Below are positions 2,151 through 20,710 of a stretch of DNA of 64,000 nt, in pieces. Source of the stretch: Aestuariispira insulae (lineage in GTDB: Bacteria; Pseudomonadota; Alphaproteobacteria; UBA8366; Aestuariispiraceae). The stretch covers positions 1 through 64,000 of the forward strand of contig NZ_QRDW01000012.1 of NCBI RefSeq assembly GCF_003385955.1, written 5' to 3'. The notes below the pieces were generated by a model, which worked only from the letters and a program-made list of their open reading frames with translations, was not told the DNA's origin and ran no database searches. Position numbers and translations under genes: made by a program. Every line of letters begins with the position of its first letter. Within the stretch, counting starts at the first letter, position 1.

Positions 2151-2260
2151 TGTCAGATCCCACACCAGATTTGGCAGGTCAAAATTAGAGTGGTGATTTT
2201 CCGGCTATTTCCCCCTAAAAATACCCACTCTATTTTTGAAAAAGTTGCAAAATCACTAAA
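2151..2260 (+). repeat. Transposon left end with candidate TnsB sites
   Basis: The terminal inverted repeat occupies about 2151-2175. CCAGATTTGGCA at 2164-2175 resembles the right-end site CCAGTTTGGAAT (inverted), and AAGTTGCAAAAT at 2242-2253 resembles the right-end AAGTTGGAAAT. AAATTAGAGTG at 2182-2192 recurs in the same orientation at 20518-20528. The stretch up to about 2445 is AT-rich and gene-free, with a further repeat TC(A/G)CTAAACTAGA near 2252-2265 and 2422-2435. Assignment as TnsB sites rests on similarity to the right end only. Confidence 0.6.
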
Positions 2261-2460
2261 CTAGATTTGTCTAGATTCTTGAGGAAAAGGCTGCGTACCA
2301 CCCTTTTTCAGATTTCTGGTATCTCTTCGTAAACAGGTTCATCCCCTTTTGAGTATATTTTCATTAACTTAAACCAAAATATGTGGGTTGCTAATTTTGA
2401 AGCGCTCTGCAATTCTTCAACTCGCTAAACTAGAAATTTTGTGGGGAAGGGGGCTGCTGG

Positions 2461-2637
2461 TTGGTGAGTGAAGAAGAAATTCAAAATTTCAAGGATGGTC
2501 CAATTGTTCGTGAAATAATTGAATTAGAAAGAAGTTATTTCTTCGAAAAGCGTAATGTGAAGACCGAACGCCAGAGAAAGCTACGCGATCTTATTGAGCG
2601 TCACACCAGGCCCGGAGATCATTCAAATGATTCTTGA
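2461..2637 (+). CDS. Small 57-58 residue protein upstream of a truncated ATPase
   Basis: A frame with a purine-rich ribosome-binding site (AAGGGGG near 2446-2453) begins at TTG 2461 or GTG 2464 and ends TGA 2635-2637. The peptide is acidic, then basic, and mostly predicted helical (motif FKDGPIVREIIELE, then FFEKRNVKTERQRKL). Its end overlaps the ATG at 2627 of the ATPase fragment, which indicates translational coupling. Small proteins encoded just before an SMC/RecF-like ATPase are common in multi-component defence loci. The specific family is not recognised. It is probably a leftover of a system whose ATPase has been truncated. Confidence 0.45.
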   Translation: MVSEEEIQNFKDGPIVREIIELERSYFFEKRNVKTERQRKLRDLIERHTRPGDHSNDS

Positions 2638-2800
2638 TGAGATCAGGCTTACCGACTTTCGGTGTTTTTACGGAAAAACACGTATTCGCTTCTCCGAAGA
2701 TCCCGACAAAAATGTCACTCTCATTTATGCGGAAAGTGGTTTCGATGATCGCTCATTGATCATTTCGCCGCTATTTTTCTCTGTAACGGAGAACAAATGA
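2627..2800 (+). pseudogene. Truncated SMC/RecF-like AAA ATPase N-terminus
   Basis: From the ATG at 2627 the peptide starts MILDEIRLTDFRCFYG and continues to VTLIYAESG. This is the classic N-terminus of RecF/DndD/AAA_23-type ATPases: first strand, Phe-Arg-x-Phe, then the start of the P-loop strand. Where the GKT of the Walker A motif should follow AESG, the sequence instead runs into unrelated residues and stops at 2798-2800, 57 residues in total. An intact member would have several hundred residues. The stop codon overlaps the ATG of the helicase gene (ATGA at 2797-2800). The recombination that installed the downstream operon probably replaced the rest of the ATPase while keeping translational coupling. 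Confidence 0.6.
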
Positions 2801-6250: not shown

Positions 6251-6253
6251 TCT

Positions 6254-7204
6254 ATGCTCTTGCCAGGACCGGAGCTCATTGATCTTTGCCGAAACGGCAA
6301 GAAGGAAGTAATCCTCATCGCGCCATTCATGAAGTGTGATGCGGTGCAGATGGCGTTTGATGCGATTCCTCGAAGCGTGACTTCGGTAAAGTGCGTAACA
6401 CGTTGGAAAGCTGAAGAGGTACTGGCTGGCGTCAGCGATCTCGAAGTTTTCGATCTGATCAAAGAACGAAACGGCGCATCACTTCATGTGCAGCCTGTTC
6501 TTCACGCGAAATATTATCGTGCGGATGATGCATGCCTCATCGGCTCCGCCAATCTGACTAAGAGGGGCATGGGATGGGCAATGCCCTCAAATTTAGAACT
6601 CTTAGTGCATCTGGAGGCCAAATTAGACCGCCTGAGAGCTTTCGAAGCGCTCGTATTTTCCACTGCCATAGAGGCTACGGACGAGCTGCGAAGTGAAGTC
6701 GCGCATACAGTTCAAGAATTGGAAGACGAAGGAAATGTCTACATAGCCGAGGAAACGCCAACGGACGACAGTACGTCATCGATCCCGCCGGAGTATTGGC
6801 TGCCATTATGCCTTCGTCCGGAGCTTCTCTTTCCGATTTTCACTGAGACTCAAACTGATCGCATAGTCGGATGGACCCTCGAAGCGGGAAGACGCGATAT
6901 CGGGGCGCTACGCATACCAAAGCACCTCTCGGCAGTTTATTTTCGAAAATACGTCGCTGCTCTTTTGAGGCAATCACCTGTAGTGCAAGCTCTAAACAAG
7001 ATTGCCCATAAACCGATTACCCCTGCCGAAGGACGAGAATTTATTGCTGAGCACGTTCCCGAAGATTACCGCGCCTATGGCAATGACCAGCACTGGGAAA
7101 CAATGCGAAACTGGCTTCTGCACTTTCTCTCAAACGAATACCGCCAACCCACCGGCTCTTTCGACCTCCAGAGAGGAACAGAAATCGCGCGTTATTCTCG
7201 CTAA
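6254..7204 (+). CDS. Phospholipase D-like nuclease-type protein, third gene of the SspFGH-type operon
   Basis: The 316-residue protein has a single HKD-type motif: HAKYYRADDACLIGSANLTK at residues 84-103, with His84, Lys86 and Asn100 in the expected spacing. One HKD motif per chain implies that two subunits form the active site, as in the Nuc and BfiI nucleases. The rest is a mixed helical domain of unknown type. Being last in the helicase-GHKL-PLD operon, it is the best candidate for the DNA-cutting component of the phosphorothioate-sensing effector. Nuclease activity is inferred; PLD-fold proteins can also act on lipids, though a signal peptide is absent. 124 bp of non-coding DNA separates it from the convergent sspD. 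Confidence 0.75.
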   Translation: MLLPGPELIDLCRNGKKEVILIAPFMKCDAVQMAFDAIPRSVTSVKCVTRWKAEEVLAGVSDLEVFDLIKERNGASLHVQPVLHAKYYRADDACLIGSANLTKRGMGWAMPSNLELLVHLEAKLDRLRAFEALVFSTAIEATDELRSEVAHTVQELEDEGNVYIAEETPTDDSTSSIPPEYWLPLCLRPELLFPIFTETQTDRIVGWTLEAGRRDIGALRIPKHLSAVYFRKYVAALLRQSPVVQALNKIAHKPITPAEGREFIAEHVPEDYRAYGNDQHWETMRNWLLHFLSNEYRQPTGSFDLQRGTEIARYSR

Positions 7205-7328
7205 CCAGAAACTTTTGGAATTGTAATAGTAGTGAACTGCGAACATCGGCGCAGGCCCAGATTTTCCGCGATGAACAAGGAGATGCAGCCTCCTGGGCGG
7301 TGCATTTGATCTGATAAGTCTGCACTTG

Positions 7329-8168
7329 CTATTTGTGACAAGCGAGACAGGCTTTGGCCTGGCCATAGAGTTCGTCAATATCGAAAGTCTCGTCATCATC
7401 CCGTAGTGGATTCTGCCGGCGCTTTGCCTTCATCCGTTCGAGCCGCTTCTCGTAGTCCTTCTTGATCTGCCTGACCCGCTCCGGCTGGATCATCTCATCT
7501 AGGGATTCTCCTTGAGACCAGGTAAAGGGCGAGCCATGGGCAACGGCGTCTTTCTCGTAGGATTTGGCCTCTTCAAAGGCTTCGGGGTGTTGCTCTTTGA
7601 GACGTACCCATTCAATTTTCTGCTGATAGAAGCAGAAAGTACAGCCGCTGCGGGAACGCCAATCATAGTAGCGTGGCAAGCCAAGTCCGGACGCGTCGAG
7701 AATGTCGTGTACTCCGGGCTTGTCGATTCCGGCCTCTTTGAACGGCAAAACAATTTTCAGCCTGTCATGCTTGGAACTGTAACCCTCCCGGTACTCTTCG
7801 TCCGCGCGTATCGCAACGTAACTATAGACCGTGCTACCCTCTTCTAAGATGGGACGAAGCCATTGTTCAAATGGCCGAAGCTTGAGCTGCCTCGTGCACC
7901 ACCGTGTTTGCGGCGAAGGCAAGAAGCTATTGTATTGCTTGAGCCAAAAATCAAAGTCACGGTCTGGATTGAGCCGCAGGATAGCCTTTCCGAGAAACCC
8001 CTCAAGACGGCCCAAAAATTCATAAACTTCAGGAAGCTCTTTTCCCGTGTCGGTAAAGAAATACTCGATATCGAGTTCAGGATGGTGCTGCCGCATGTAG
8101 ACCGCAAGGGCGGCACTGTCTTTACCACCGGAGAGGCCCAACACATGCTTTTCCGACACGACGCTCAC
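7329..8168 (-). CDS. sspD: SspD, PAPS-reductase-like ATP pyrophosphatase for DNA phosphorothioation
   Basis: The 279-residue protein begins with a PP-loop SGGKDS at residues 13-18, which binds and activates ATP, followed by a FTDTGKELPE stretch typical of PAPS reductase/DndC proteins. Conserved cysteines are Cys91 (RWCTRQLK), Cys176 and Cys179 (SGCTFCF), with a C-terminal CxxC at 274-277. Several of these fit an iron-sulfur cluster ligand set as in DndC. The protein is thought to adenylate the DNA backbone phosphate and transfer sulfur supplied by the desulfurase. Its ATG overlaps the stop of sspC by 4 nt, so it is the last gene of a coupled sspB-sspC-sspD operon. Confidence 0.85.
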   Translation of the reverse strand: MSVVSEKHVLGLSGGKDSAALAVYMRQHHPELDIEYFFTDTGKELPEVYEFLGRLEGFLGKAILRLNPDRDFDFWLKQYNSFLPSPQTRWCTRQLKLRPFEQWLRPILEEGSTVYSYVAIRADEEYREGYSSKHDRLKIVLPFKEAGIDKPGVHDILDASGLGLPRYYDWRSRSGCTFCFYQQKIEWVRLKEQHPEAFEEAKSYEKDAVAHGSPFTWSQGESLDEMIQPERVRQIKKDYEKRLERMKAKRRQNPLRDDDETFDIDELYGQAKACLACHK

Positions 8169-11100
8169 GATGCGACCTTCTCAGTTTCATTGTCACCGTT
8201 CTCCTCCGACTGCGTCATGTAGCGTGAACTCAGTTCAGCAAGGGCGGCCAGCACGAGCCGCCGCTGTGTTTTATCTGCAGCATCTATGACGCTTTCGAGG
8301 CGCGCAATGATCTCGTCGATTCCGGAACGCTCATTATCGGTGACTTCAAACTCCGCATGTAGAGGTGACGGACGGCCATTTACGCCAACGACAACAGCCA
8401 TAGCATGACGTTTATCGACCCGCCCTTTCACACGCGCGAAGTTTTCGGCCCGGATGAACTTCTGGGCCAGGTCCGTCATCTCTACCGCTGCTCTATCAAG
8501 ATCGGGATCGGTCCAGTCTCTCGGCGGTTTGTTAGCGGCTAGACTGGCGATACCCTCAATGTCCTGTTCGGTACCCTCAATTTTAGCAAGCCGTCCGATA
8601 AAAGCATCAAGCCGGAAGTCCCCCCCGATCTTCTTAATATTCTCGGCGCGCGCCCGAAGCTCAGCAAGCGCCTGCGAAGAATTGTTCGGAACTTGCAGTT
8701 CGGCGAGCATAAGATCGTTTAGACGTCGTAGCATAGAGGGGTATGATTCAACGAGTTCTTCGAGACCGTCCCGCACATCGTCAACGATACCTTTCAGCGC
8801 GGCATCATCATTGAGCGCACCGCGCCCGCCGAACGCCCCTGGGATGTCATCGAACAGAAACTTGTTTGGATCGTTCGCATGCTTAAAGATGTCGCGGACG
8901 CGAATGGCATTGGCCGAAAGCTGGGTCGTGCGCTTTGTCCAAGATTGCAGACGGTCAAAGATCGCAATCAGGCCGCGCGCCACATCAATCGGCGCCAAAT
9001 GTGTAAGCCGGTTGCCAGCATCCAGATCGTGCACAACTTCCACCATGCTTGATAGTAGACGCCGTGACAATGCTGACAAATCCATCCAGCGTAACTGAAT
9101 CTCGCTGGCATTCTTCGCCAATATTTCAACATCAATGTCTTTGAAACGCGCTTGGAAAACTCCTTCCCTGTATAGCGCAACTTTCTCACGGCGCGAAAGA
9201 ATGAAAGCAACAGCCAGCACGGGCATCACCCCGTCCTTCAAGCCAAACGGCGGTTCTGACCAAAGACGATAGATTTCAGCGACACTAACGGTTCGATCTT
9301 CGGCCTTTTTTAAAAGCTCGGCTGTGGCCTCCCAAAGTGGTGATAGATTAAATGGATCGCCATCCTCTGCCGGTGTGCAGAAACACCAACCATGGTCGGT
9401 TTGGGCATAAAGGCCGGTTGCCTCCAATAGCGAGTCAAACAAACCGCCTTCGGCCGGATAGCCGTTGATCCCAAGACGTGGCTCCCCCTCATTCGACACC
9501 ATAGCCCGTAAAAGCGCGTTTTGAGCCGCAACCGCGTTGCTCGACGGCTTTATCCTGTTGAGCAGTTCGTTATTGAGTCGCGGCGAGAGCGGATAGCGTC
9601 GCGCCGCGAGTTCCGAAGCGACGTTATTAAGCTCGGCCTGAAACCATTGCTGGGGCTTGTGGCTCTTGAGATACCAGGTCGCATTGTCGAAGGCGCGGCG
9701 GATTTCCTCTTCGAGTTGTCCTTGCAGAACTGTATGCCTCGCCTGCACTTCCCGCTGTGCCACAGGGTCTCCGGCAAGGTCAGGATGTTCGTCCTGCACT
9801 TCGGTCAACGCAATTAGCTCACGGGCAAGGTCAGTGATCACCCAAGCCCGTTGAGACAAACCAGCGACAACATCCCAATCCCTAGACTCACGCGTGGCCT
9901 CCCGGCAAATCCTCTGCGCTTGCTCAGCCGTCTCCCCGTCTGTCGGAACCGCAAGCAGAAACTCTCCAATCGTACCCACATGAGGCTTATATGCCTGCGC
10001 ACGATCTATAAGAGTACTCAGCGGAGCAACCTCTACATCAAACCATCGGAGAGCGCCGGTCTCATGGTAATGCCGCTTCGCCAGTATGGGCTGCAAACCA
10101 GCAAGCTGCTGTAGTAGAGTAAAATCGACTTCCCGTACATGCTGCAACGTTTCCTGCACGGCTCGATCGATGTCGAAGTCACTTCCTGCATAAATCGCAT
10201 AGGCATCAGCGAACTTACGGTAGATGACAAGTGACCACTTTTTGAGTTGTTGAAGAGCGACTTCAGTTTCCTCCTTGGAAGCTGCACCGGCGCATGCCCC
10301 CAAAAGTTCGTCCGTCGGTATTAGTCCGGAACGTTCCTTGAACAGATCAATCAGCGCAATCGCTTTCAAAAGCCGGGTATGAAGCGCATCACCGCCAAGC
10401 GATTCACAACGTTCAATTGCCTCAGCCGCCGTCGCCCAACGGTGCCCGTCCGGTGATGCGAGGATGGAGGGTTCAAGGTTAACTCGCAAATAGTTCCAAA
10501 GCCGATCCGGCTCATAGAAAATCTCTTCGGTCTGGTGGCGAATGAAATCCTGAAATCCGTACGGTTCTGCAGAATTCAGGAAGCCAAAGATACTACGCTG
10601 GTTCTGCCCGAAGCGCCGCCGCGAAATAGGACCCAGCAAACAGGCAACGACGGGATGGAGCGGCCAGCATCCTTCTAGAGTCTCCGGTAAATAGCGCGAA
10701 GCGGCCGGGCGCTGGCGTTTAATTTCGGATGCAATCAGAGATGCAAGTTTCCCCGGCTTAACAGCCGACCGGCCATTCTCGATAGCGCGGGAGATCAATT
10801 CGATCTGCTCCTCACCCGCCGCGTTCACGGAGAGATCGATATACCGGCCCTGGATTTTCGACCATTCATCGCGCATCTCCCGCGACAACCGGTTCGCATA
10901 TTCCTCAAAGGCCTGATGAAGAATGCCTATAATTATCAAGCGACCACCACTGCGCGATGCTGCTTCCGCAAGAAGCTGAAACAGATAGACATCAGCACCT
11001 TCTTGCGCAGCAGCTTCAAGGAATTTACCCATCTCATCAATGAATAGGACCAGGCCGCCTTCGCTGCGTGGGTGCCTATTGGAAAGTTCAACGAGCGCGT

Positions 11101-11554
11101 CCACAACGGCAGCGTCAGTCCAACCTTTCTTCTGTGTGGCACTAACGAGTCCTCGCCCAACAAGAGCCTCACCAATGACAAGCGCCGCATTGTCCCGACG
11201 CCCTACGACAGGCAGCGCAAGCCAGCCTTTCGATTTTGGCGGTAGATCGTTAAGCACGCCCTTAGCTGTGCCCCTTCCGATGGCAGATACTGCTTTATCC
11301 CTGAGCGCTGCGTTACCACTAAGCAAAGCACTCAGTGCGACGACAAGGCTCGATTTGCCGCTGCCGTAAGGCCCGGTCCAGGTGAAGGCACCATGACCGG
11401 TTTCCGCCACATGATGACCGACCGCTGCGAGAACGTCTGCTGAAGATTTTGGGCAGATGAAACCCTCAAGGGCCTGAGCATCATTGTGATCCGTGTCGAT
11501 TCTAATCGAACGCTGAAATCGCCTTGCAATATAGACGTTATCGGCGAGCACCAT
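8165..11554 (-). CDS. sspC: SspC, large P-loop ATPase of the phosphorothioation machinery
   Basis: The 1129-residue protein has Walker A GPYGSGKS at residues 61-68 and Walker B LVLFIDEMGKF with Asp173-Glu174. The remaining ~900 residues are predominantly helical with no other motif I recognise. Length, the P-loop near the N-terminus, and the place between a DUF4007 protein and a PAPS-reductase homologue identify it as SspC. In the characterised Ssp system SspC is an ATPase needed for single-stranded phosphorothioation with SspB and SspD. It overlaps sspB by one nucleotide and sspD by four, which suggests that a fixed stoichiometry is important. Confidence 0.8.
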   Translation of the reverse strand: MVLADNVYIARRFQRSIRIDTDHNDAQALEGFICPKSSADVLAAVGHHVAETGHGAFTWTGPYGSGKSSLVVALSALLSGNAALRDKAVSAIGRGTAKGVLNDLPPKSKGWLALPVVGRRDNAALVIGEALVGRGLVSATQKKGWTDAAVVDALVELSNRHPRSEGGLVLFIDEMGKFLEAAAQEGADVYLFQLLAEAASRSGGRLIIIGILHQAFEEYANRLSREMRDEWSKIQGRYIDLSVNAAGEEQIELISRAIENGRSAVKPGKLASLIASEIKRQRPAASRYLPETLEGCWPLHPVVACLLGPISRRRFGQNQRSIFGFLNSAEPYGFQDFIRHQTEEIFYEPDRLWNYLRVNLEPSILASPDGHRWATAAEAIERCESLGGDALHTRLLKAIALIDLFKERSGLIPTDELLGACAGAASKEETEVALQQLKKWSLVIYRKFADAYAIYAGSDFDIDRAVQETLQHVREVDFTLLQQLAGLQPILAKRHYHETGALRWFDVEVAPLSTLIDRAQAYKPHVGTIGEFLLAVPTDGETAEQAQRICREATRESRDWDVVAGLSQRAWVITDLARELIALTEVQDEHPDLAGDPVAQREVQARHTVLQGQLEEEIRRAFDNATWYLKSHKPQQWFQAELNNVASELAARRYPLSPRLNNELLNRIKPSSNAVAAQNALLRAMVSNEGEPRLGINGYPAEGGLFDSLLEATGLYAQTDHGWCFCTPAEDGDPFNLSPLWEATAELLKKAEDRTVSVAEIYRLWSEPPFGLKDGVMPVLAVAFILSRREKVALYREGVFQARFKDIDVEILAKNASEIQLRWMDLSALSRRLLSSMVEVVHDLDAGNRLTHLAPIDVARGLIAIFDRLQSWTKRTTQLSANAIRVRDIFKHANDPNKFLFDDIPGAFGGRGALNDDAALKGIVDDVRDGLEELVESYPSMLRRLNDLMLAELQVPNNSSQALAELRARAENIKKIGGDFRLDAFIGRLAKIEGTEQDIEGIASLAANKPPRDWTDPDLDRAAVEMTDLAQKFIRAENFARVKGRVDKRHAMAVVVGVNGRPSPLHAEFEVTDNERSGIDEIIARLESVIDAADKTQRRLVLAALAELSSRYMTQSEENGDNETEKVAS

Positions 11555-12513
11555 TACGCCGCCTCCTTATTCTTTATTCGCTCATAGTCACGGGCGACAT
11601 ATTCAAGTGCAGCATCCAGATCGAGCGCCGCATCGCGCAAAACCTGTTTCAATCCCGCAGTCTCCGACCAGCGGAATGCGCCGTCTGTGAATTCTTCAAG
11701 GCCGAGCAAGCGGTCTGCGACATCGTTTTCGTCCAGCAAAAATACACGCCCCGGAGAGCCCGGCTCATGCGCAATCGCCTCAAAAGACAAGGTTTGCGCC
11801 GATGTGTAATCCTTCCAAAAATCAATCAGCGCATATAAAAAGATGCCACTGCGCAAGGTCGATTTCGGGCCGCGCACAAACCGGAATCCATCGCGCTTAC
11901 CAACTGCTTTTATCAAACCAAGTTCAGCAAGCGGCGATTCAAGTGTATCTTCCGGCGACGCACTCGCCGACGACTGCCGCGCAACATATGTGCGGAGAAA
12001 ACACTCAACATCACGCCGGATCGTTGTCGCCGATACGCGCGGCCAAGCACAGTCCTTCGCAACCTTTTCAAGCCCCTTCACAAGCCGTTCACGTTCGAAT
12101 GTCGCGCCGGGGAAGTTATTGAAACTCCAATACCATGTTGTTTTATCCGGTCGTCCCGCAAGCTTCCAATGAATCATCCAAAGGCTCGCCGGATGCTCCA
12201 TATACGGATCGAACCCCTCCGCCCCAAAGAGCCTGTCGCCAAGCGCTGTCGTTACAAGCGCATTCGCGGCTTCCCCATCCATAATAATATCGGATGCTGT
12301 CGCCCAATGCCGCATTGACGAAACCATGTTCTTTCCCACGCCGAAGCGGGCGATAGCATCATCCCGCGTAAAAACCGTCTTGCTATCGGAGACGCCCTTC
12401 CGCTCATTCACGGCATCGTATGCCTTCTTGAGCCACCCGTAGCGTAACGGAAACGTCTCGTGCCCAGAGAATTGTGGCTTGTAGCTGTCTAGGTAGATAG
12501 GTCCTCGTGGCAT
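11554..12513 (-). CDS. sspB: SspB, DUF4007 nickase-type DNA-binding protein
   Basis: The start at 12513 (MPRGPIYLDS) is chosen because an AGGAAG Shine-Dalgarno precedes it; a GTG at 12549 would add 12 residues with no conserved content. The 319-residue product has the DUF4007 signature: a FSGHETFPLRYGWLKKAYD opening, then a winged-helix-like region FTRDDAIARFGVGKNMV and WATASDII. SspB of Vibrio is a DUF4007 protein with nicking activity that opens one strand so that sulfur can be incorporated at specific sequences. It leads the sspBCD operon, transcribed away from sspA. One of the two 20-bp repeats covers its ribosome-binding region. Confidence 0.85.
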   Translation of the reverse strand: MPRGPIYLDSYKPQFSGHETFPLRYGWLKKAYDAVNERKGVSDSKTVFTRDDAIARFGVGKNMVSSMRHWATASDIIMDGEAANALVTTALGDRLFGAEGFDPYMEHPASLWMIHWKLAGRPDKTTWYWSFNNFPGATFERERLVKGLEKVAKDCAWPRVSATTIRRDVECFLRTYVARQSSASASPEDTLESPLAELGLIKAVGKRDGFRFVRGPKSTLRSGIFLYALIDFWKDYTSAQTLSFEAIAHEPGSPGRVFLLDENDVADRLLGLEEFTDGAFRWSETAGLKQVLRDAALDLDAALEYVARDYERIKNKEAA

Positions 12514-12521
12514 TATTTGTC

Positions 12522-12600
12522 TTCCTGGAGGTTTGATCCAGCTCGACACTAAACTATAAGACGTGGTAGGGTCAAACTCATTCCTGGAGATATCATCCAG
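12522..12600. promoter_or_regulatory. Twin 20-bp repeats at the divergent sspB/sspA control region
   Basis: TTCCTGGAGGTTTGATCCAG at 12522-12541 and TTCCTGGAGATATCATCCAG at 12581-12600 agree at 16 of 20 positions, in the same orientation, 59 bp apart. Each contains a partly palindromic CTGGA...TCCAG. The first overlaps the Shine-Dalgarno of sspB, and the second lies 68 bp before sspA. A possible -10 element TATAGT for sspB lies between them on the minus strand, around 12552-12557. The arrangement is that of an operator pair for a dimeric regulator, perhaps an autoregulating Ssp protein; no dedicated regulator gene is visible. Confidence 0.45.
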
Positions 12601-12667
12601 AAAGGAAGCTAGGCTTTTGGTTGGAAAATTTGCAGCGCAGAATCCTTAATAACTCATTGGAGATAAA

Positions 12668-13858
12668 ATGAAAACTGGGAAAGCGCTATATTTTGATTAT
12701 CAGGCGACCACCCCCCTCGATCCACAGGTTTTTGAGGTGATGCGCCCATTTTTCGCTGAATCTTTTGGTAATCCTCATGCATCGGATCACGTGGTTGGAT
12801 GGGATGCGGCCGAAGCCATTGATCATGCGGCTACAAATGTGGCCGCAATTGTCGGTGGCGATGCAGATGAGATTATTTTTACCTCAGGGGCCACTGAGGC
12901 AAATAACTTGGCTTTGCTGGGTGTCGGGAGGCGAGCTGCTGGAGGCAACAGGAGACGAATTCTTCTTGGTGCTACTGAGCATAAGTGCGTCCTTGAAAGC
13001 GGCAGAGTACTCAGCAATGAACATGGATATGAGGTCACACACATACCTGTTGATGCTGATGGCCGGCTAGATTTGGACGTTTTGGAGGCGGAATTAGATT
13101 GTGATGTCTTGCTCGTCTCGGTGATGGCTGCGAATAACGAAATTGGAACACTGCAAGACATCCCAAAAATATCGCAGCTTGTCTCTCAATATGGTTGCCT
13201 GCTTCATTGCGATTGCGCTCAAGCTCCCTGTGCCATGGATATATCTTCCTTTTCCCAATATGTAGACCTTATTAGTTTATCTGGGCACAAAATGTATGGC
13301 CCTGTGGGGATCGGTGCGCTTTATGCTCGAAGAGATATACAAGGAAATGTCGAACCGATTATTCATGGAGGAGGGCAGCAAAATGGATTGCGATCCGGTA
13401 CATTGCCGACTGCTTTATGTGTCGGGTTTGGAGAGGCTGCTCGAATAATCGTTGGCGATAAGTACGCTGAGGAACGTGCAACTCTCGCTAAACGTCGCGA
13501 CAAATTTGTGGAATATTTGGATAAGTTACCCTGCAGAACTTGGGTAAATGGTCCGACGGATTCATTCCTGCGCCACCCAGGGAATATTAACATAGGCTTC
13601 GAAGGAATCGCGGCTGCTGATTTGATTACAGTGCTTCAGCCGCATCTTGCCGCTTCAACAGGGTCAGCTTGCACGAGTGGCCTACCCGAACCTTCCCATG
13701 TTCTAAGAGCAATCGGCCTGAGCAAGCAAGAAGCTGCCTCTTCAATTAGATTTAGTATTGGGAGGTATACATCCGACGAAGAAATTGAGGAGGCTTCAAA
13801 ACTCATCAAGTCTTCTATCGAAACCCTCATAAAAAATAGTATGCAGATGACTGCCTAA
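12668..13858 (+). CDS. sspA: SspA, cysteine desulfurase supplying sulfur
   Basis: The 396-residue class V aminotransferase of the NifS/IscS family has His105 (ATEHK), PLP-binding Lys208 (SGHKMYGP) and catalytic Cys335 in GSACTSG, all intact. It would release sulfur from L-cysteine as a protein-bound persulfide and hand it to SspD. A GGAG Shine-Dalgarno lies 7 nt before the ATG. The gene reads away from sspB and is visibly more AT-rich than the sspBCD genes, which suggests a separate origin. Many sspBCD-sspFGH cassettes lack a nearby desulfurase and use a host enzyme. A general IscS role cannot be excluded from sequence, but the location argues for dedication to phosphorothioation. Confidence 0.8.
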   Translation: MKTGKALYFDYQATTPLDPQVFEVMRPFFAESFGNPHASDHVVGWDAAEAIDHAATNVAAIVGGDADEIIFTSGATEANNLALLGVGRRAAGGNRRRILLGATEHKCVLESGRVLSNEHGYEVTHIPVDADGRLDLDVLEAELDCDVLLVSVMAANNEIGTLQDIPKISQLVSQYGCLLHCDCAQAPCAMDISSFSQYVDLISLSGHKMYGPVGIGALYARRDIQGNVEPIIHGGGQQNGLRSGTLPTALCVGFGEAARIIVGDKYAEERATLAKRRDKFVEYLDKLPCRTWVNGPTDSFLRHPGNINIGFEGIAAADLITVLQPHLAASTGSACTSGLPEPSHVLRAIGLSKQEAASSIRFSIGRYTSDEEIEEASKLIKSSIETLIKNSMQMTA

Positions 13859-13928
13859 ATATTTCCCTAATCCATAGCCAGAGAATATCACACAACAGAA
13901 CTTAGAAACGATTAAGCAGTGGTAATGA

Positions 13929-13962
13929 GAGGCGAACTGCCTAGGTTAAGCTAGTTCACCTC
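13929..13962. terminator. Hairpin between convergent sspA and tnsC
   Basis: GAGGCGAACT pairs with AGTTCACCTC, nine of ten positions (the tenth is a G-U pair in the minus-strand transcript), with a 14-nt loop. It lies between the convergent sspA and tnsC genes. No clear T-run follows, so it may be a weak terminator or an mRNA 3' end stabiliser. Confidence 0.35.
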
Positions 13963-13985
13963 AAATCTGTTCAAAACCAACTTAA

Positions 13986-14864
13986 TTAACACGCTCCATA
14001 CCGCTCACTTGGCAGCATCCATTCCGTCTCGGTCAGTACCTCTGCTGGAATATGATCCAACCCCGATCTGATGGAATTCTTGGCGGCCCGAACAATCAAG
14101 TCCTTGGTCTCCCCGGTCAGGCCTTCGGTACGCTCATGCACCAGCGATATGAACCGGCCTTTCTTATTGTCGTCACATACCTTGAGATTACAGCCCATGA
14201 TGAGCTGCAAGACGAATGCGGCATATTCCTTATCCGCACGTTCCCATGGCGACAGGTTGAAAGGAAAAATGCGGCTGGCCAGTTGTGGATCCAGTTGGAT
14301 CATATGACGAGCATGGTGGGTTCCCACTGCGACGATCCGCAAATCCAACTTATTACTGAGATAACGGATTGAGTTCAGGAAGGCTGCGCGTTCATCAGTA
14401 TGCGCATTCATGATGTTATGAATTTCATCCAGAATGAGAATACGGACATTATATTTGCCCACGAGGATTTCAATCTGTGCCAGCAGGCTGTCTGCATTAT
14501 GTGAGGTGCGGATCGGTGCATTCATCGATTTCAGAATTTCAATGAACAGGGATTTCGGATTCGCACGATGCCCCGGCGTTTCAACAAGAAGGACCGGGCA
14601 TTGCTTCGCGTCCATGGATTTCTCCCGAAGCTGGTCCCGCACATCCAACCGGAATTTGCTGACCAACATGCTTTTACCGCTATTTGGCTCCCCATATATC
14701 AACAGTCCCTGGGATCGCACAGAGGGACCTTCGTGAAAAAGCGACCAGAGTTCGTACATGCACTCCTCCCCCTTCCGATAGGGGATCCATTTGTCCTGGT
14801 ACAAGGCTTCGTGCACGGACTTTTCAAAAGGCAGTTTATCAATGCGATGTTCAATCTGATGCAT
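13986..14864 (-). CDS. tnsC: TnsC/TniB-type AAA+ transposition regulator
   Basis: The 292-residue AAA+ ATPase has Walker A GEPNSGKS (residues 58-65) and Walker B ILILDEIHN (142-150, Asp146-Glu147). In Tn7-like elements TnsC links the target-recognition protein to the TnsAB transposase and enforces target immunity by its ATP cycle. It is about half the length of Tn7 TnsC (555 residues) and closer to TniB and the short TnsC of some CAST elements, lacking long N- and C-terminal partner-binding arms. Its ATG overlaps the tnsB stop by one base. The stop lies 127 bp from sspA. Confidence 0.85.
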   Translation of the reverse strand: MHQIEHRIDKLPFEKSVHEALYQDKWIPYRKGEECMYELWSLFHEGPSVRSQGLLIYGEPNSGKSMLVSKFRLDVRDQLREKSMDAKQCPVLLVETPGHRANPKSLFIEILKSMNAPIRTSHNADSLLAQIEILVGKYNVRILILDEIHNIMNAHTDERAAFLNSIRYLSNKLDLRIVAVGTHHARHMIQLDPQLASRIFPFNLSPWERADKEYAAFVLQLIMGCNLKVCDDNKKGRFISLVHERTEGLTGETKDLIVRAAKNSIRSGLDHIPAEVLTETEWMLPSERYGAC

Positions 14865-16777
14865 CAGAGGGTTCTCCTGAGGATCGTGAAATTGGGTTTA
14901 AGCTGGTCTTCGTCAAAATCGATGAAATCGTCCTCCTCAGGTGGATCTGGGCTTTTTACTTCCACGGGTTGCACGGTTTTCAATTCAGGCTTTCGGACAG
15001 GTGGTTTCGGTGTTTCCCTCGCTCCGGCGGGCATCCGGTCCGCATCCTGTTTCCGGCGCCTGGATTTCTCTTTTTTCTTCCTGACACTGCGGGTTTCTTT
15101 TTTTGCGGCATCAATGGCCTTCAGATTCTCCTCAACAGCCCGGAAAATAAGATCTTCATCCACTGTCTTGAGGCCACGGTCCTTTATCCGCTTGCGGGCA
15201 GCCTTGTATTCCCAAAGGGAGATCGGCCGTCGATAGGTATTTCGATAAGGAACCTGGACATATTCATTAAAAACCGGATGGAATAAGTATATCTTACTGA
15301 TATCTCTGGGATCTCTCCGAATAATCAGCTGGTTTTTATTGTACTTTTTCCTGTTTTCCAGGAGGATCTTCAGTTCAGGTGAGTTGTAGTGGATTTTATC
15401 CCATACAATGCCATCCCTCTGGATTGTCCTTTTCGACAACGGCAACAAATCGAGACGCAGTTTCTTTTCATCAGAAATCCTGTCCGGCAGACCAATTCCA
15501 TTCTTCCCGGTGAGGCCGTCATTCCATTTTGAAATCGGTGAGCATTCCAGTTGGCGATGCACTTTCTGGTGATAGACATTCACAACATGGTTGAAGAGAT
15601 ATTTTTCCAATTCGTCCAAGGTCATGACAGCATATTGATCCGGGTCATATTCCACCCTGTCTTTTGGCCCCCGGAATGTTGTGCCTGGAATACTGTCCAG
15701 TTCAGTTTTCAGGGTTCCATTAAGGCGCTCAATATGACCGCCCCATTCGGCAAAGCCAGGCGGGCGAAACTGGGTATCCACGGACCATTCCTCAGAAAAG
15801 ATCTGGACCATCTCGCCCTTGAAATCCTTGCCGTTGTCCATGTGCAGGATCTTCATCAGACCCCATACCGGCCAATCACCTTCAACGCCAATATCACGGA
15901 GAAACTTGTCCTTTTCCAATATGCTCTGACAAAGACACATGCCGACACTGTCAGCACTGGGCTTGTCCAATGAGAGAAACATGCCGGTGATCATTCGGCT
16001 GTAGACATCAATTGCCACCGTGATCCAGGGCCTGTCGATAGGTTCCCGATCTTCTGAATCCACGACCATTATGTTCAGCTGGGTATGATCAATCTGAACA
16101 ACATCCAGGGGCCGTTTGGCCTCACCATATTCGCTGTTGATGGCTTTGTACTGTTCCTTGGCCTGCTTAGGCCCCCGGCGCTTTCGTTTTCTTTCTTCCT
16201 CAGAAAGCAGGGCAATCCTCCGGTCGACGGTATTATATGATGGGGGAGTTAGCTTGGCTGTCCTGCAAGCAAGCACAATGAGTTCGTGGAGTTTCTTCTT
16301 CTTGTATCTCTGCTTGGTCAGATATTTGGTCTGAATATGATGCTCGATGATCAACTCTACATTATCATCAAGCCGCCGCTGCCCTCTCTGGGAGTTCTTG
16401 CGATCGGAAACAAGCGCAGACAAAACCGGATTGTCTTTGTATTTTCGCAACCAATTGCGAATGGTTTGACCGGAAAGTCCGGTTTCCTCCGCGATTTGCT
16501 CAACCTTCTTATGGATCGATCCAGATATAGAGATTAAAGGTTCAATTATCTGAAAACGCTTTCGGGCAATTTCGAGATCATCCGCCGTAAAGGAACAGTG
16601 TGGTTTGATTTTCAGCTTGGTGGATGGGGCACAAACGTCTTCCCGGGCCACCACCTGTTTTTCACCAACGGTACGATTGAGTATGAGAATATTGTTGGCA
16701 TCCACTATCCGAAGAATTTCGCACTGGTCACCATTCACCTCGACCGCAGCTCCGGCTTCGAATTTGAGAACTACCAT
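14864..16777 (-). CDS. tnsB: TnsB, DDE transposase
   Basis: The 637-residue protein has N-terminal helix-turn-helix regions (for example LSGQTIRNWLRKY near residues 101-113) that bind end repeats, followed by an RNase-H-like integrase core. The catalytic triad is Asp230 (VVQIDHTQ), Asp314 (LHMDNGKDF) and Glu350 (GGHIERLNG). A Mu-type beta-barrel follows, and then a charged, Pro-rich tail (residues ~570-637) of the kind that contacts TnsC. TnsB makes the 3' strand breaks and joins them to the target. It overlaps tnsA by 7 nt and tnsC by 1 nt. All catalytic residues are present, so it should be active. Confidence 0.9.
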   Translation of the reverse strand: MVVLKFEAGAAVEVNGDQCEILRIVDANNILILNRTVGEKQVVAREDVCAPSTKLKIKPHCSFTADDLEIARKRFQIIEPLISISGSIHKKVEQIAEETGLSGQTIRNWLRKYKDNPVLSALVSDRKNSQRGQRRLDDNVELIIEHHIQTKYLTKQRYKKKKLHELIVLACRTAKLTPPSYNTVDRRIALLSEEERKRKRRGPKQAKEQYKAINSEYGEAKRPLDVVQIDHTQLNIMVVDSEDREPIDRPWITVAIDVYSRMITGMFLSLDKPSADSVGMCLCQSILEKDKFLRDIGVEGDWPVWGLMKILHMDNGKDFKGEMVQIFSEEWSVDTQFRPPGFAEWGGHIERLNGTLKTELDSIPGTTFRGPKDRVEYDPDQYAVMTLDELEKYLFNHVVNVYHQKVHRQLECSPISKWNDGLTGKNGIGLPDRISDEKKLRLDLLPLSKRTIQRDGIVWDKIHYNSPELKILLENRKKYNKNQLIIRRDPRDISKIYLFHPVFNEYVQVPYRNTYRRPISLWEYKAARKRIKDRGLKTVDEDLIFRAVEENLKAIDAAKKETRSVRKKKEKSRRRKQDADRMPAGARETPKPPVRKPELKTVQPVEVKSPDPPEEDDFIDFDEDQLKPNFTILRRTL

Positions 16778-17451
16778 GATTTATCTCCGGCCAATCCAAC
16801 TGGAGTTTTCTGATCAATCAGGTTTTCAAAATCCGTTGTGAAGATTCCGTGTGCCAGTAGGCCCAGGACGACCCTATACACCCGTGATGCCGGTTCATCT
16901 CTGAGGCCCGATAGGTGAACCAGTTCTTCAGTTGAAACCATGCATCCTGTGGATATGGATTTGATGATGCGCGCAGAAAGGCCTGGATCCGGCTTATTCC
17001 TTTGCAGAGGCAACAACAGCTTAGCATTTTCCAGGCGGCTATTTCGTATTTCATGTTCGGTTTGAACGGAAAAATTCCAGTAGTTGAGAGCCGAGTATTC
17101 TTCAGCCGCCTGAAACCGCGGCATCAACAATTTGCGCTTCTTCTTCAGTTCATCCTGATACTTAATTTCCACCAGATCAGACGACCGCCCATCGCTGTAT
17201 ATCACCAGGAAATCAGGTGTATATTTCCGGGATTTTCCCTCTCCATCTTCAAACTGGATACAGCACGGTTGCGGGATAATATCCTCGACCTGGTGATCCA
17301 AAGACTTCAGATAAATGAAATCCCTCTCTAGGCCCGATTCAAACTGAACCGATTGTTTGAACCTATGCACATTTACAGCGCCAGTCAGGCTTCGGCGCCC
17401 AGGCGGAATTTTCCGTACTGCTCCAGAATGCACGTTTGTCTCCCCATTCAT
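16771..17451 (-). CDS. tnsA: TnsA, restriction-endonuclease-like 5'-strand nuclease
   Basis: The 226-residue protein has the TnsA core: ESGLERDFIYL with Glu42, YTPDFLV with Asp80, and LVEIKYQ with Glu95 and Lys97, the E-D-(E/Q)-K layout of PD-(D/E)XK enzymes. The C-terminal third is a helical domain as in Tn7 TnsA, which there binds TnsC. TnsA cuts the 5' ends so that the element moves by cut-and-paste rather than by cointegrate formation. It is downstream of tniQ by 32 bp and overlaps tnsB. Confidence 0.88.
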   Translation of the reverse strand: MNGETNVHSGAVRKIPPGRRSLTGAVNVHRFKQSVQFESGLERDFIYLKSLDHQVEDIIPQPCCIQFEDGEGKSRKYTPDFLVIYSDGRSSDLVEIKYQDELKKKRKLLMPRFQAAEEYSALNYWNFSVQTEHEIRNSRLENAKLLLPLQRNKPDPGLSARIIKSISTGCMVSTEELVHLSGLRDEPASRVYRVVLGLLAHGIFTTDFENLIDQKTPVGLAGDKSW

Positions 17452-17483
17452 TCTCTTTTCCCCAACTGGAGATAGTTATGAAA

Positions 17484-18743
17484 TCATCGGGCAAGTTTTT
17501 CTTCAGCCTTCAACCTTCGCTTGATCGTTTCCTCAACCCAGCTAGCAATATTCTCCCCCTCCAGGCGTGCTGCAGACTTGGCTGCCTCTTTGACTTCAGG
17601 GGATACACCATCAAGTTTCCAATATCGGGAAATCTTTTTATTCGGCAATGGTTTGGCACGAATTCGATGGCCAACAAGATTGACAATATTCGGAGTTGTT
17701 GGGTCAATCGCATGCGAGGACAGTGTTTTTGCTGCTTCGCCGATCTGACTTTGCCTGAAACGAATACATGGTTCCGCAAAGTAGCGATCAATGACATCTT
17801 GCAGGATGTACGGAAGCGGCTCCCGCCTGCGCATGAAACGCCAGCGTTCAAATTCCACTATCCGTCCGGAGCTCACAAACCGGCCAGGCCAGAACTTCAG
17901 CAACCATTCCGCTCCAAGAAGCAATTCCCTTCGGCATCGTGGATTATACTGTTCTATTTCGTGCAACTTTGGGATCAGTCCGGAGCGAAACAATCCAGCC
18001 CGCAGTTTTAGATGCTCCTGCAGGGCCCGGGCATAAAATGAGCAGCCCAGGAGACGAACCAATACCATCAACAGCTGGAAATAGATGATACTATGCAGCC
18101 AATAGCCACCGACAGCCTCATTTCCTCGGCACAGTATCATCAAATGTTTCTGCTGCAGGTCGAGTGCTGCCTTGGATACCAATGGGACTCTCGCCATACG
18201 GCTCAGTTCATTTCCACAAACGCTACAACAAGAAATCACCGAGCCGGCGGGTGTGCGCAGAGGCTCTATCGGTTTGCCGCACTGCTTGCACCGGTCAATC
18301 AGCTCACAACCATGTTTCGGACATATCGTGATGAATGAAAACCGCCAAAGGTGCTTGAAGTAGGGGGTCGCCTTCTTATCCAGACATATAGGACAATACT
18401 GCTGCCCATAGCTTTTGAATCCGGCTCCGGCCGGAGGGAACCAATCCATCCGGGATTTCTTCAATCGCTTAATAAGAAGGGAATTCTCATAACGTCGAAT
18501 TCCCATATTCATGAGAAACAGGGGATCTATACCCGTATGCTCAGCTAAAACTGAACAGAAAGATTTGGTGGCATTTCTATCCAGATCAAACCGATAGAGA
18601 CGGCCACCAGGCTCACAAATCGGATATAAATCCTTGGGTGCCAGACCATTACTCAACGCAATCCGTGTGAACCAGGATGACAATAATTCATCATGGTAAG
18701 GACGCGGCCGACCGAGCCAGAGCGAATGCCATTGATCAAACAT
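17484..18743 (-). CDS. tniQ: TniQ-family target-selection protein
   Basis: The start at 18743 (MFDQWHSLW) is preferred over 18773 because the conserved TniQ opening RPRPYHDELLSSWFTRIA follows directly. The protein is about 419 residues. It has a TniQ N-terminal domain, zinc-binding CPICL plus CPKHGCELIDRCKQCGKPI, and a further CCSVCG pair, followed by a ~230-residue C-terminal domain expected to read target DNA. TnsD of Tn7 is the same kind of protein and binds the end of glmS. Here the presumed target is the tRNA-Ser locus next to the right end. Unusually, tniQ is the first gene of the operon rather than following tnsC. Confidence 0.85.
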   Translation of the reverse strand: MFDQWHSLWLGRPRPYHDELLSSWFTRIALSNGLAPKDLYPICEPGGRLYRFDLDRNATKSFCSVLAEHTGIDPLFLMNMGIRRYENSLLIKRLKKSRMDWFPPAGAGFKSYGQQYCPICLDKKATPYFKHLWRFSFITICPKHGCELIDRCKQCGKPIEPLRTPAGSVISCCSVCGNELSRMARVPLVSKAALDLQQKHLMILCRGNEAVGGYWLHSIIYFQLLMVLVRLLGCSFYARALQEHLKLRAGLFRSGLIPKLHEIEQYNPRCRRELLLGAEWLLKFWPGRFVSSGRIVEFERWRFMRRREPLPYILQDVIDRYFAEPCIRFRQSQIGEAAKTLSSHAIDPTTPNIVNLVGHRIRAKPLPNKKISRYWKLDGVSPEVKEAAKSAARLEGENIASWVEETIKRRLKAEEKLAR

Positions 18744-18773
18744 GCGACTTATTCCGAAAGCGAAACAAATCAA

Positions 18774-18998
18774 TCACGCATAACTCCAGTTCAAGGGGGA
18801 GAATGCTTGATTACACATTATTATTAGCATACTATTTATTATTGCGGTAGCGGAATGTAATTCAGCTGTATGAAGCTACTTCGCTTCTGTCTCTGCCGAT
18901 TCAGAAGCATTCCCGTTTCCGAGTGTTCTGGATATCGCCGATCTCACAGCTTAACCTTGACCGGAAAACATTAAATAAACTGAGAAGGAAAACCTTCC
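18774..18998. other. Gene-free AT-rich spacer between tniQ and the metallophosphoesterase gene
   Basis: About 225 bp with an AT-rich stretch near 18809-18835 (TTATTATTAGCATACTATTTATTATTG region). The two neighbouring genes diverge from it, so it must hold promoters for the leftward tniQ-tnsABC operon and the rightward phosphoesterase gene. No CRISPR-like repeat or confident promoter pair was seen. Confidence 0.5.
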
Positions 18999-19754
18999 GT
19001 GAAAATCGCCGTCATGTCCGATCTCCATATCGAGTTTGAACCCTATAGGCCTGATCTGCCTTCAGACATAGATGTTGTAATCCTGGCCGGAGACATTGCC
19101 TTGGGTACCGATGGCATGGAATGGGCGAAAGAAAATCTGACTAATCATCAGGTGATCTATGTGGCCGGCAATCATGAGTTTTATCGGCATGACCTTCACC
19201 CCACGCTGGAAGCCTTAAAAGCGGCTTCCAACGATCACGTCCACTTCCTTGAAAATGAACAGATCGAAATTGATGGCGTGCGATTTCTCGGCTGCACCTA
19301 TTGGACCGACTGCGCTTCAAACGGCACGCCTGAGATATCGGCCGGGAATGTTGCAGGTGCACTGAACGATTTTCATGGAGCCATCATGAATGGAGAACGG
19401 AAGTTCACCATTGGAGATGCCTTGGACCTTCATAGGCAAAGCCGCACCTGGCTGGAAGCTGAACTCGCAAAAGACTATCCCGGGAAGACTGTTGTTGTAA
19501 CCCATCACGCACCGGTCATACATGCAGGCGCACCGATGTTTCATGGCGGCCCCATCTCGCCCGGTTTCGAAAATGCCCACGAAGATCTGGTCGCAAAATC
19601 AGGCGCCAGACTTTGGTGTTTTGGCCACACCCACTATGACTATGACAGGATCGTCGGAAACGACTGTAGAGTGGTCTCCAGTCAACGGTGCTACCCCAAA
19701 GAGAGGGCCCGGATGGGGTTGCCAGCTTTCGAGCCCAAAATAGTGGAAGTCTAG
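18999..19754 (+). CDS. Calcineurin-like metallophosphoesterase
   Basis: The 251-residue protein starts at GTG with GAGAAGGAAA upstream as ribosome-binding site. It has all metal-binding blocks of the family: SDLHIE (Asp8, His10), LAGDIA (Asp32), GNHEF near residue 57, THHAP and FGHTHYDYD. The substrate cannot be told from sequence; relatives cleave phosphodiesters of nucleic acids or nucleotides. It is cargo of the Tn7-like element, next to the right end and convergent with a broken exonuclease gene. A role in defence is possible but not shown. Confidence 0.8.
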   Translation: MKIAVMSDLHIEFEPYRPDLPSDIDVVILAGDIALGTDGMEWAKENLTNHQVIYVAGNHEFYRHDLHPTLEALKAASNDHVHFLENEQIEIDGVRFLGCTYWTDCASNGTPEISAGNVAGALNDFHGAIMNGERKFTIGDALDLHRQSRTWLEAELAKDYPGKTVVVTHHAPVIHAGAPMFHGGPISPGFENAHEDLVAKSGARLWCFGHTHYDYDRIVGNDCRVVSSQRCYPKERARMGLPAFEPKIVEV

Positions 19755-19855
19755 TAATTAGGGGCAGGCTTATACATTTCGGCGATAGCCGATATGACTC
19801 CCAAGTACCCGCGGATACCCAAAGCCAGAAAAAGCTGTGCAGTGCCTGCCTGAGA

Positions 19856-20379
19856 TTACAAACTCTTTTCAAGGAATGCCTTTGCCCACCATAAGGCATC
19901 GGCTTCCGCTCTATGGTCAGGTTCCTTTGAGTTTTTATTGCTTAAAATGTCCTGCCAACTTTCGGCTACTCCAGGGATGTTGGCCGCGATAATCTGAATG
20001 GAATGCAGAACCGGTTTATTATCAACGCCGGCTGTCTGATCCATCCCTGATCATATGCAGGCGCATCGGAAACCAGAAGTGTCTCAGCTATCTCCGCTTC
20101 AAAATGCTCGACAACTTTTTGGGCCGCGATCCCCTGGTCCAGTAAAAGTTCCTTTGAAATCCCATGAATGGTTTCGGATTCCAGTGACCAGCCTGTCCAA
20201 TAGTCCCAATCCTCAACCCAGTCCTGATCCGGATAGATCAACCAGGCGCCGGACTGGATAGTACCGTCGTCAAATAGATGGGCAAAACCCAGTTCGATCG
20301 GCCAGCCGCCGTAAAGGCTGGAGGCCTCCAAGTCAACGAAGGTTATCTTTCCGAGATTGTCTGGAAAGCTGATTTTCAA
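19856..20379 (-). pseudogene. Frameshifted DEDDh-type 3'-5' exonuclease
   Basis: Two frames together give one exonuclease. The first (20379 to about 20040) has the start KITFVDLEASSL with the Asp-x-Glu motif and SDAPAYDQG; the second (to 19856) has DNKPVLHSIQIIAANIPGV and ends HRAEADALWWAKAFL with the His-x4-Asp motif. The break is near 20035-20050, where GATCAG-GGATG-GATCAG forms a short repeat; an 11-bp duplication or a one-base loss would explain it. Without repair the protein lacks its last catalytic His and Asp. It may be a dead gene or a sequencing error. It is cargo between the phosphoesterase and the right end. Confidence 0.65.
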
Positions 20380-20490
20380 GCTGAAATCCGGAATTGCAAA
20401 GCTTCAGGGAAACAGAAACCTCATTATACAAGCCATTTCAAGCAATTGTATCTGATCTGCTAAGTACATTCCTTCAAAAATAGATCTGAT

Positions 20491-20557
20491 ATTTCCAACT
20501 TAGTCTGCAGGTATTCCAAATTAGAGTGACGATTCCAAACTGGTTTGAAGTCTGACA
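20491..20557 (-). repeat. Transposon right end with three tandem TnsB-type sites
   Basis: ATTTCCAACTTAG (20491-20503), ATTCCAAATTAG (20513-20524) and ATTCCAAACTGG (20532-20543) are spaced 22 and 19 bp and share the consensus ATTCCAAnYtaG. A weaker copy may lie at 20468-20484. The end closes with TCTGACA at 20551-20557, inverted copy of the left TGTCAGA. Tandem sites about 20 bp apart are the known layout of Tn7 right ends. Confidence 0.7.
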
Positions 20558-20575
20558 GAACCCAGGGTTTCCATA
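20558..20575 (+). repeat. 18-bp direct repeat, right copy, abutting the transposon
   Basis: Identical to 2133-2150. It starts at the base after the terminal ACA of the right end and lies between the element and the terminator of tRNA-Ser, so it probably represents the chromosomal half of the insertion site. Confidence 0.8.
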
Positions 20576-20577
20576 AG

Positions 20578-20617
20578 AAAAACCCCCGGAAACCTTAGGG
20601 TCTCAACGGGGGTTTTT
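20578..20617 (-). terminator. Rho-independent terminator of tRNA-Ser
   Basis: AAAAACCCCCG (20578-20588) pairs perfectly with CGGGGGTTTTT (20607-20617) around an 18-nt loop. It begins 5 bp after the tRNA 3' end in the direction of transcription. Being symmetrical, it can work both ways and shields the transposon from tRNA read-through. Confidence 0.85.
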
Positions 20618-20622
20618 ATATC

Positions 20623-20710
20623 TGGCGGAGTGAGGGGGATTCGAACCCCCGAGGGGTTGCCCCCAACACGCTTTCCAGGCGTGCGCCTTAAGCCGCTCGG
20701 CCATCACTCC
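20623..20710 (-). tRNA. tRNA-Ser (anticodon GGA)
   Basis: The minus strand folds into a class II tRNA: acceptor GGAGTGA/TCACTCC, discriminator G and encoded CCA, anticodon loop CTGGAAA in the stem ACGC/GCGT, a long variable arm (TTGGGGGCAACCCCTC region) typical of serine tRNA, and the T-loop GTTCGAATC. It is 88 nt with CCA. The Tn7-like element lies just downstream and leaves the gene complete. Confidence 0.95.

Follow-up and report, generated by a model that had tools for sequence, protein, structure and literature searches.

A Tn7-like element with a tailed TniQ lies just downstream of a tRNA-Ser(GGA) gene, and its relatives lie behind tRNA-Ser, tRNA-Gln or tRNA-Phe genes

In the genome of Aestuariispira insulae, a Tn7-like element has one end shortly downstream of a tRNA-Ser(GGA) gene, which raises the question of whether its target selector reads the tRNA gene or whether the element came to lie there by some other route. 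We analysed a stretch of 64,000 nucleotides (contig NZ_QRDW01000012.1, positions 1 to 64,000, hereafter the window), the start of which is the first base of the contig, so that nothing further left is readable. The element spans 2151–20557 (18.4 kb), with TGTCAGA at 2151–2157 and TCTGACA at 20551–20557. It has the TGT...ACA inverted termini of Tn7-like transposons with repeated, putative TnsB-type sites recognised by sequence pattern, and it carries in a single locus a TnsA endonuclease, a TnsB DDE transposase, a TnsC AAA ATPase and a TniQ/TnsD selector; matches to TniQ, TnsA, TnsB and TnsC were also found at the loci of relatives. The features are as follows.

2133–2150, no strand: left copy of the exact 18-bp direct repeat GAACCCAGGGTTTCCATA, abutting the left end
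2151–2240, plus strand: left end of the Tn7-like element, TGTCAGA and internal repeats (sequence pattern)
2797–7204, plus strand: cargo, SF2 helicase, GHKL ATPase (MzaB-like) and PLD-like nuclease (Pfam/PADLOC)
7329–12549, minus strand: cargo, SspD, SspC and SspB of DNA phosphorothioation (PADLOC)
12668–13858, plus strand: cargo, SspA/DndA-type cysteine desulfurase (Pfam/PADLOC)
13986–14864, minus strand: tnsC, TniB-family AAA ATPase (PF05621, 7.1e-47)
14864–16777, minus strand: tnsB, DDE transposase with rve and Mu-transpos_C domains (domain match)
16771–17451, minus strand: tnsA, endonuclease (PF08722, 6.3e-17)
17484–18773, minus strand: tniQ, 429 aa, proposed target selector with a TniQ/TnsD core (PF06527, 1.1e-22) and a C-terminal tail, a predicted ribbon-helix-helix (tail common to 17 relatives; model and fold matches)
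18999–19754, plus strand: metallophosphoesterase gene within the element, near the right end (PF00149)
20470–20557, minus strand: right end, TGTCAGA and three TnsB-site-like repeats of the TTTGGAAT type (sequence pattern)
20558–20575, no strand: right copy of the 18-bp direct repeat, abutting the right end
20578–20617, minus strand: terminator-like hairpin in the interval between tRNA and element (11-nt arms; −23.9 kcal/mol, z −4.3)
20623–20710, minus strand: tRNA-Ser(GGA), proposed attachment gene (ARAGORN; Rfam tRNA, 57.9 bits)

The tniQ-tnsABC operon (13986–18773, minus strand) has its tniQ side at the end that faces tRNA-Ser(GGA), and its tniQ is the one PF06527 gene of the genome. The first-pass annotation had placed the right end 65 bp past the tRNA 3' end and had described the tRNA as transcribed toward it. 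Both statements stand: 65 nt (20558–20622) separate the end from the CCA, and the tRNA, on the minus strand, is transcribed leftward to the side where the operon lies. The spacer of 65 nt consists of the right repeat copy and the hairpin. In another genome of the same family (G001), which is without a tailed TniQ, the DNA right behind tRNA-Ser aligns to the left flank of the window element with 70% identity over about 200 bp, and the ORF adjoining that site shares 56% identity over 399 aa with the window ORF at 185–1888. The element thus stands between the tRNA and DNA that adjoins the tRNA elsewhere, which supports an insertion.

The cargo (2797–13858) combines SspABCD-type genes with an adjoining helicase (PbeA-like), GHKL ATPase (MzaB-like) and PLD-like nuclease. 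These last three form a possible restriction partner of SspABCD, and PADLOC returned no match of the set to a known Ssp partner. The ORFs scanned in the window include no integrase and no tnsE, and none was assigned to Cas apart from weaker matches of the helicase ORF; megablast of the element against phages gave no match. An SspABCD system with candidate restriction partners on the element represents a further case of the spread of phage-defence genes by Tn7-like transposons.

Relatives of the window TniQ were collected from a class sample of 385 genomes (three full-length proteins besides that of the window, 33–34% identity), from plasmid records (two, Azospirillum brasilense), from an order search (one, G012) and from named genomes scanned with a profile (21 loci, two of them repeats of G004 and G164). 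A scan of genome contigs with the single protein found no relative; the alignment/profile scan did. The C-terminal tail, around RYWKLDGV...WV, is common to 18 TniQ proteins including that of the window, and in 17 of these 18 the element terminates shortly beyond the 3' end of a tRNA gene or beyond a displaced tRNA fragment. For the remaining one (L071), the contig starts 2.3 kb before tniQ, and no tRNA lies in that stretch. Site-specific insertion beside a conserved gene is therefore a Tn7-like trait of 17 of the 18 tailed elements, and the earlier description of the region as a Tn7-type attachment site is borne out. Spacing and orientation were read at 18 sites, namely the 17 tailed elements and L075, which has a broken tniQ. 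The tRNA genes at these sites are distributed as follows.

tRNA-Ser(GGA), seven sites: the window, G331, L062, L064, L065, L066 and L070
tRNA-Gln, ten sites: L061, L063, L068, L069, L072, L081, AzoK, AzoM, L084 and L075 (broken tniQ)
tRNA-Phe, one site: L067

The near-copies G331/L066 and AzoK/AzoM mean that these counts are not all independent. At all 18 sites tniQ is found 3' of the tRNA. At 17 of them the operon has its tniQ side closest to the tRNA; in L063 it is turned round, with the tnsC side facing the tRNA. The distance between tRNA and tniQ is below 400 nt at nine of the 18 sites. At L061, L063 and L068, the tRNA-side end lies 7.6–12.4 kb from tniQ, and membership in one element is assumed. 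For L068, no tRNA was found within 10 kb at first; a tRNA-Gln lies 12.4 kb from tniQ, with the element end 35 nt past its CCA. In AzoM and G004 the intact tRNA is 7–9 kb away, and tRNA 3' fragments of 17 nt (AzoM) and 15 nt (G004) lie beyond the right end, at distances of 28 and 30 nt. A tyrosine integrase gene is located between the fragment and the intact tRNA in both. The transposon therefore probably came first, with an island entering the tRNA later. AzoM, G004 and L068 were accordingly dismissed as exceptions to tRNA adjacency, being accounted for by two tyrosine-integrase islands and one long cargo. Such islands between the tRNA and the Tn7-like element, located at 12430–19620 in L060 and 1060–9512 in L070, leave the tRNA fragment of 17 or 15 nt beside the element.

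The element end was read from the CCA as TGTCR (TGTCG or TGTCA; TGTTG in L081) followed by repeats about 20 bp apart, and it was picked by eye at all 18 sites; for AzoM and G004 the count starts at the displaced fragment of 17 or 15 nt. On this basis the spacing between CCA and element end is 27–36 nt at 16 of the 18 sites (28, 33, 30, 27, 36, 34, 29, 35, 33, 35, 29, 29, 28, 28, 28 and 30 nt), and the median of the spacings is 29.5. An automatic repeat score exceeded 22, the top value among 30 distinct non-target tRNA downstream regions of the window's own genome, at 13 of the 18 sites; L062, L069 and L075 scored 22, and L072 and G004 scored 20. Among 19 downstream regions of tRNA-Ser in relatives, taken where no element end was known, L009 scored 24 and the others at most 20; L009 is the integrase island behind the intact tRNA of G004. 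The score backs the picked ends as supporting evidence and is not proof of them.

The two long spacings are those of the window (65 nt) and L061 (67 nt). The 65 nt given in the first-pass annotation are thus an outlier that L061 alone resembles. Both spacers fold into a strong hairpin (−25.6 and −26.3 kcal/mol), and the other 16 give 0 to −10.8 kcal/mol. After subtraction of the hairpin, 25 and 35 nt remain, near the 27–36 nt of the other sites. The hairpin of the window, next to the tRNA, has an outer stem of 11 bp, ends in five U and reaches −23.9 kcal/mol, and none of 200 shuffles was as stable (z −4.3). Preservation of the tRNA terminator, which the annotation had claimed, is plausible in the window from this folded hairpin, although a simple terminator scan limited to loops of up to 8 missed it. 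As a general rule that insertion leaves the terminator intact, the claim fails, with a strong hairpin in only two of the 18 spacers. With these two cases, the terminator hairpin as the cause of long spacing is a lead only.

We then compared tailed with tail-less TniQ genes. The 385-genome sample, drawn by the Pfam core alone, holds 15 PF06527 genes: all four tailed ones (including the window's) are at tRNAs, and one of the 11 tail-less ones (L150) has tRNA genes in the fetched DNA, which spans up to 10 kb on each side (the contig of L148 is only 3.7 kb) (Fisher, p 0.0037; 0.011 without the window). Seven tail-less loci from the profile scan had no tRNA in the fetched DNA (0/7), giving 1/18 for tail-less genes overall. 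With these loci added and L071 left out, 17/17 stands against 1/18 (Fisher, 4e-9), a comparison in which tailed proteins are over-sampled because the profile-scan patterns span part of the tail; both this and the class-sample values are too small because near-copies occur among the elements. The contrast agrees with a C-terminal part that reads the tRNA gene. The tail-less L150 (G113:C8, 9602–11397) is a distant TniQ element whose TGT and repeats lie, by eye, about 26 nt past tRNA-Gly(TCC). It shows that tRNA adjacency can occur without the tail, and it probably represents a second lineage of tRNA-homing elements that lacks this tail. The tail-less L073 and L074 are sister to the tailed L063 (support 98/86), and the DNA fetched around them contains no tRNA. 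In L074, whose tniQ is at 9977–10984, the readable right end (9794) adjoins a gene of the metallo-beta-lactamase fold, with no tRNA in 16.9 kb, and this locus is perhaps a natural loss of both the tail and the tRNA site. Separately, Enterobacterales plasmid records frequently contain TniQ relatives that match query residues 9–320 (33% identity) and not the tail; of the 60 matching records, 56 were typed conjugative.

The AlphaFold model of the window TniQ (mean pLDDT 82.7) matches TniQ/TnsD cores. Its core (residues 6–287) aligns to the TnsD-TnsC-DNA complex 8v32, which we take to be from a type I-B2 CAST, with Z 14.6 over 214 residues (rmsd 6.9). For the tail the matches are weak: Arc at Z 3.6 (rmsd 3.3, 47 residues), CopASO for the tail modelled alone (pLDDT 68) at rmsd 1.1 over 40 columns with E 7.2, and PSK_trans_fac in six of 13 members, best E 0.0021. 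From these weak matches the tail is predicted to adopt a ribbon-helix-helix fold of the Arc/CopG/VapB kind.

Which part of the tRNA gene might such a tail read? Close TniQ relatives had been expected at the same distance from tRNA-Ser genes. The adjacency to tRNAs recurs (17/18), but only seven of the 18 sites are tRNA-Ser, ten being Gln and one Phe, and the usual distance is 27–36 nt. On a tree of 22 TniQ proteins the tRNA identity does not cluster, with eight changes for Gln against a shuffled mean of 7.0 and five for Ser against 6.1; sister proteins sit at different tRNAs (L064 at Ser and L081 at Gln, from one MAG; L070 at Ser and L084 at Gln). Because of this scatter, a TniQ that reads tRNA-Ser is too narrow a description, and no specific tRNA sequence is clearly recognised; a specific tRNA-Ser reader is contradicted by the Gln and Phe targets. 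All 18 target tRNAs contain GGTTCGA, and GGTTCGAATCC of the T-arm is present in 16. The latter also occurs in non-target tRNAs of the window's own genome, in seven of the 27 distinct rows compared (drawn from 30 of its 45 tRNA matches), and so does not single out the targets. Judged from the tree and the target sequences, a feature shared by the 3' parts of tRNA genes is likelier to be what the tail reads than a Ser-specific one. The fuller proposal is that the ribbon-helix-helix tail recognises what the 3' halves of tRNA genes have in common, so that close relatives insert at an equal distance behind different tRNAs, and that the terminator hairpin shifts the insertion outward; as a whole it is possible, and we put it forward tentatively.

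The gene content, the ends, the side on which tniQ lies, the recurrent tRNA adjacency, the spacing and the co-occurrence with the tail are read directly from the loci. We consider it highly probable from these sequence comparisons that the single TniQ acts as the protein target selector, that its tail binds the 3' part of the tRNA gene and that TnsABC inserts just downstream of the CCA. In this scheme, the TniQ core would recruit TnsC and TnsAB, and the C-terminal extension, with its predicted ribbon-helix-helix, would bind the 3' part of the tRNA gene. TnsABC would then place the element downstream at a short, nearly fixed distance from the CCA, in most cases with the tniQ-side end facing the tRNA. 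Members would target tRNA-Ser(GGA), tRNA-Gln or tRNA-Phe, leaving the tRNA gene intact and the site available in every new host. Three parts of this scheme are inferred: direct binding of the tRNA gene by TniQ, the role of the tail as the binding part, and the letters that are read.

Other explanations ask for less of the tail, or of TniQ altogether. TniQ may depend on a guide RNA or on an extra selector encoded by the element, of the kind that TnsF represents in Tn6022, and the tail would then only dock this partner. Partner selectors are used by other Tn7-like elements (PMC10293859, available text), and the metallophosphoesterase gene between tniQ and the right end could be a candidate. However, where less than 400 nt separates the tRNA from tniQ (9/18) the gap would hardly accommodate a partner gene, which could instead be encoded in another part of the element, and the ORFs scanned gave no Cas assignment apart from the weaker matches of the helicase ORF. 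We regard a partner selector as unlikely. The tRNA neighbourhood may also be a hotspot that merely tolerates insertions, in which the element landed without reading the tRNA. Integrase islands do occupy the same tRNA sites, and behind tRNA-Ser in 19 loci of relatives (L003–L021, with L003 mostly N) only two pairs share a stretch of 34–42 nt, as in an island hotspot. A passive hotspot would not be expected to yield a spacing of 27–36 nt at 16 of 18 sites, tniQ on the 3' side of the tRNA at every site, or the difference in tRNA proximity between tailed (17/18) and tail-less (1/18) elements, and this reading is very improbable.

The 18-bp direct repeat bears on a further explanation. The 16-bp core of the repeat occurs, with at most one mismatch, only at these two places in the window's own genome. 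The five bases that adjoin the element differ between its two ends (CCATA and GAACC) and lie inside the repeat, so that a 5-bp duplication at the window element was rejected, the 18-bp repeat being there instead. A clear left end was found at four of 14 loci: the window (18 bp), AzoK (5-bp duplication GAAGT), and G331 and L067 (no duplication). The best left-end candidate of L075, with a score at noise level, has AGCCC, and a weak candidate in L065 has no duplication. Our preferred reading of the repeat is a recombinant of two insertions 13 bp apart in one target (GAACC + CCATA; 13+5=18); a right-end cut 13 bp too far out and the att core of a tyrosine recombinase were considered as alternatives. 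The last of these would mean that a tyrosine recombinase or another island mechanism placed the DNA. In its favour, exact direct repeats flank the segment, islands of this kind insert at tRNA 3' ends, and the sequence that immediately follows tRNA-Ser in G001 can be aligned to the left flank. Against this, the repeat is absent from the tRNA and abuts the TGTCAGA/TCTGACA ends exactly, the ORFs scanned include tnsABC-tniQ and no integrase, and the relative AzoK has a 5-bp duplication. Placement by an island mechanism is even less probable than a passive hotspot, and insertion by TnsABC under the guidance of the tailed TniQ is the reading that we carry forward.

In Tn7 at glmS, the right end faces glmS. 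The window element resembles the TnsD/attTn7 pathway in its protein-guided insertion shortly past the 3' end of a conserved gene that is kept intact, and differs from it in that the target is a tRNA gene, the TniQ tail is different and no tnsE was found among the ORFs scanned. The insertion of Tn7 lies about 25 bp from the TnsD site, according to the available text of PMC2918618. Tn7-like transposons 'downstream of tRNAs' are named in the discussion of Benler et al. 2021 (PMC8649781); this is the same phenomenon, and the available text of that paper does not cover the family with this tail, the distances at which it inserts or its distribution among Ser, Gln and Phe targets. Likewise, in the available text of the literature we found no description of a non-CRISPR family in which TnsA and TnsB are separate, the tail is a predicted ribbon-helix-helix and close relatives occupy Ser, Gln and Phe sites, although supplements may hold one.

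The closest comparison is with CASTs of types I-B2 and I-D, for which the available texts describe tRNA-homing TnsD as established, with tRNA-Leu as the target of CyCAST and tRNA-Val as that of PmcCAST (PMC10293859; PMC11406308). CyCAST inserts about 30–33 nt downstream of tRNA-Leu (PMC10293859), close to the 27–36 nt found here, and the selector of these systems is likewise of the TniQ/TnsD family with a C-terminal extension. As far as these texts go, the CASTs have TnsA and TnsB fused (PMC11406308), whereas tnsA and tnsB are separate ORFs in the window; they have a CRISPR system and a second TniQ (PMC10293859), whereas the window has one TniQ and no Cas gene assigned in the ORFs scanned; and their selector has a C-terminus with multiple HTH domains, whereas the window TniQ ends in a predicted ribbon-helix-helix. 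The set of tailed and tail-less proteins and of Ser, Gln and Phe targets makes the choice of target by TnsD/TniQ tails directly testable. Collectively, the window system is a non-CRISPR (no Cas gene assigned), tailed variant of the known tRNA-homing TnsD/TniQ, a compact CRISPR-free Tn7-like system with a single selector that is predicted to insert large cargo behind tRNA genes present in every cell.
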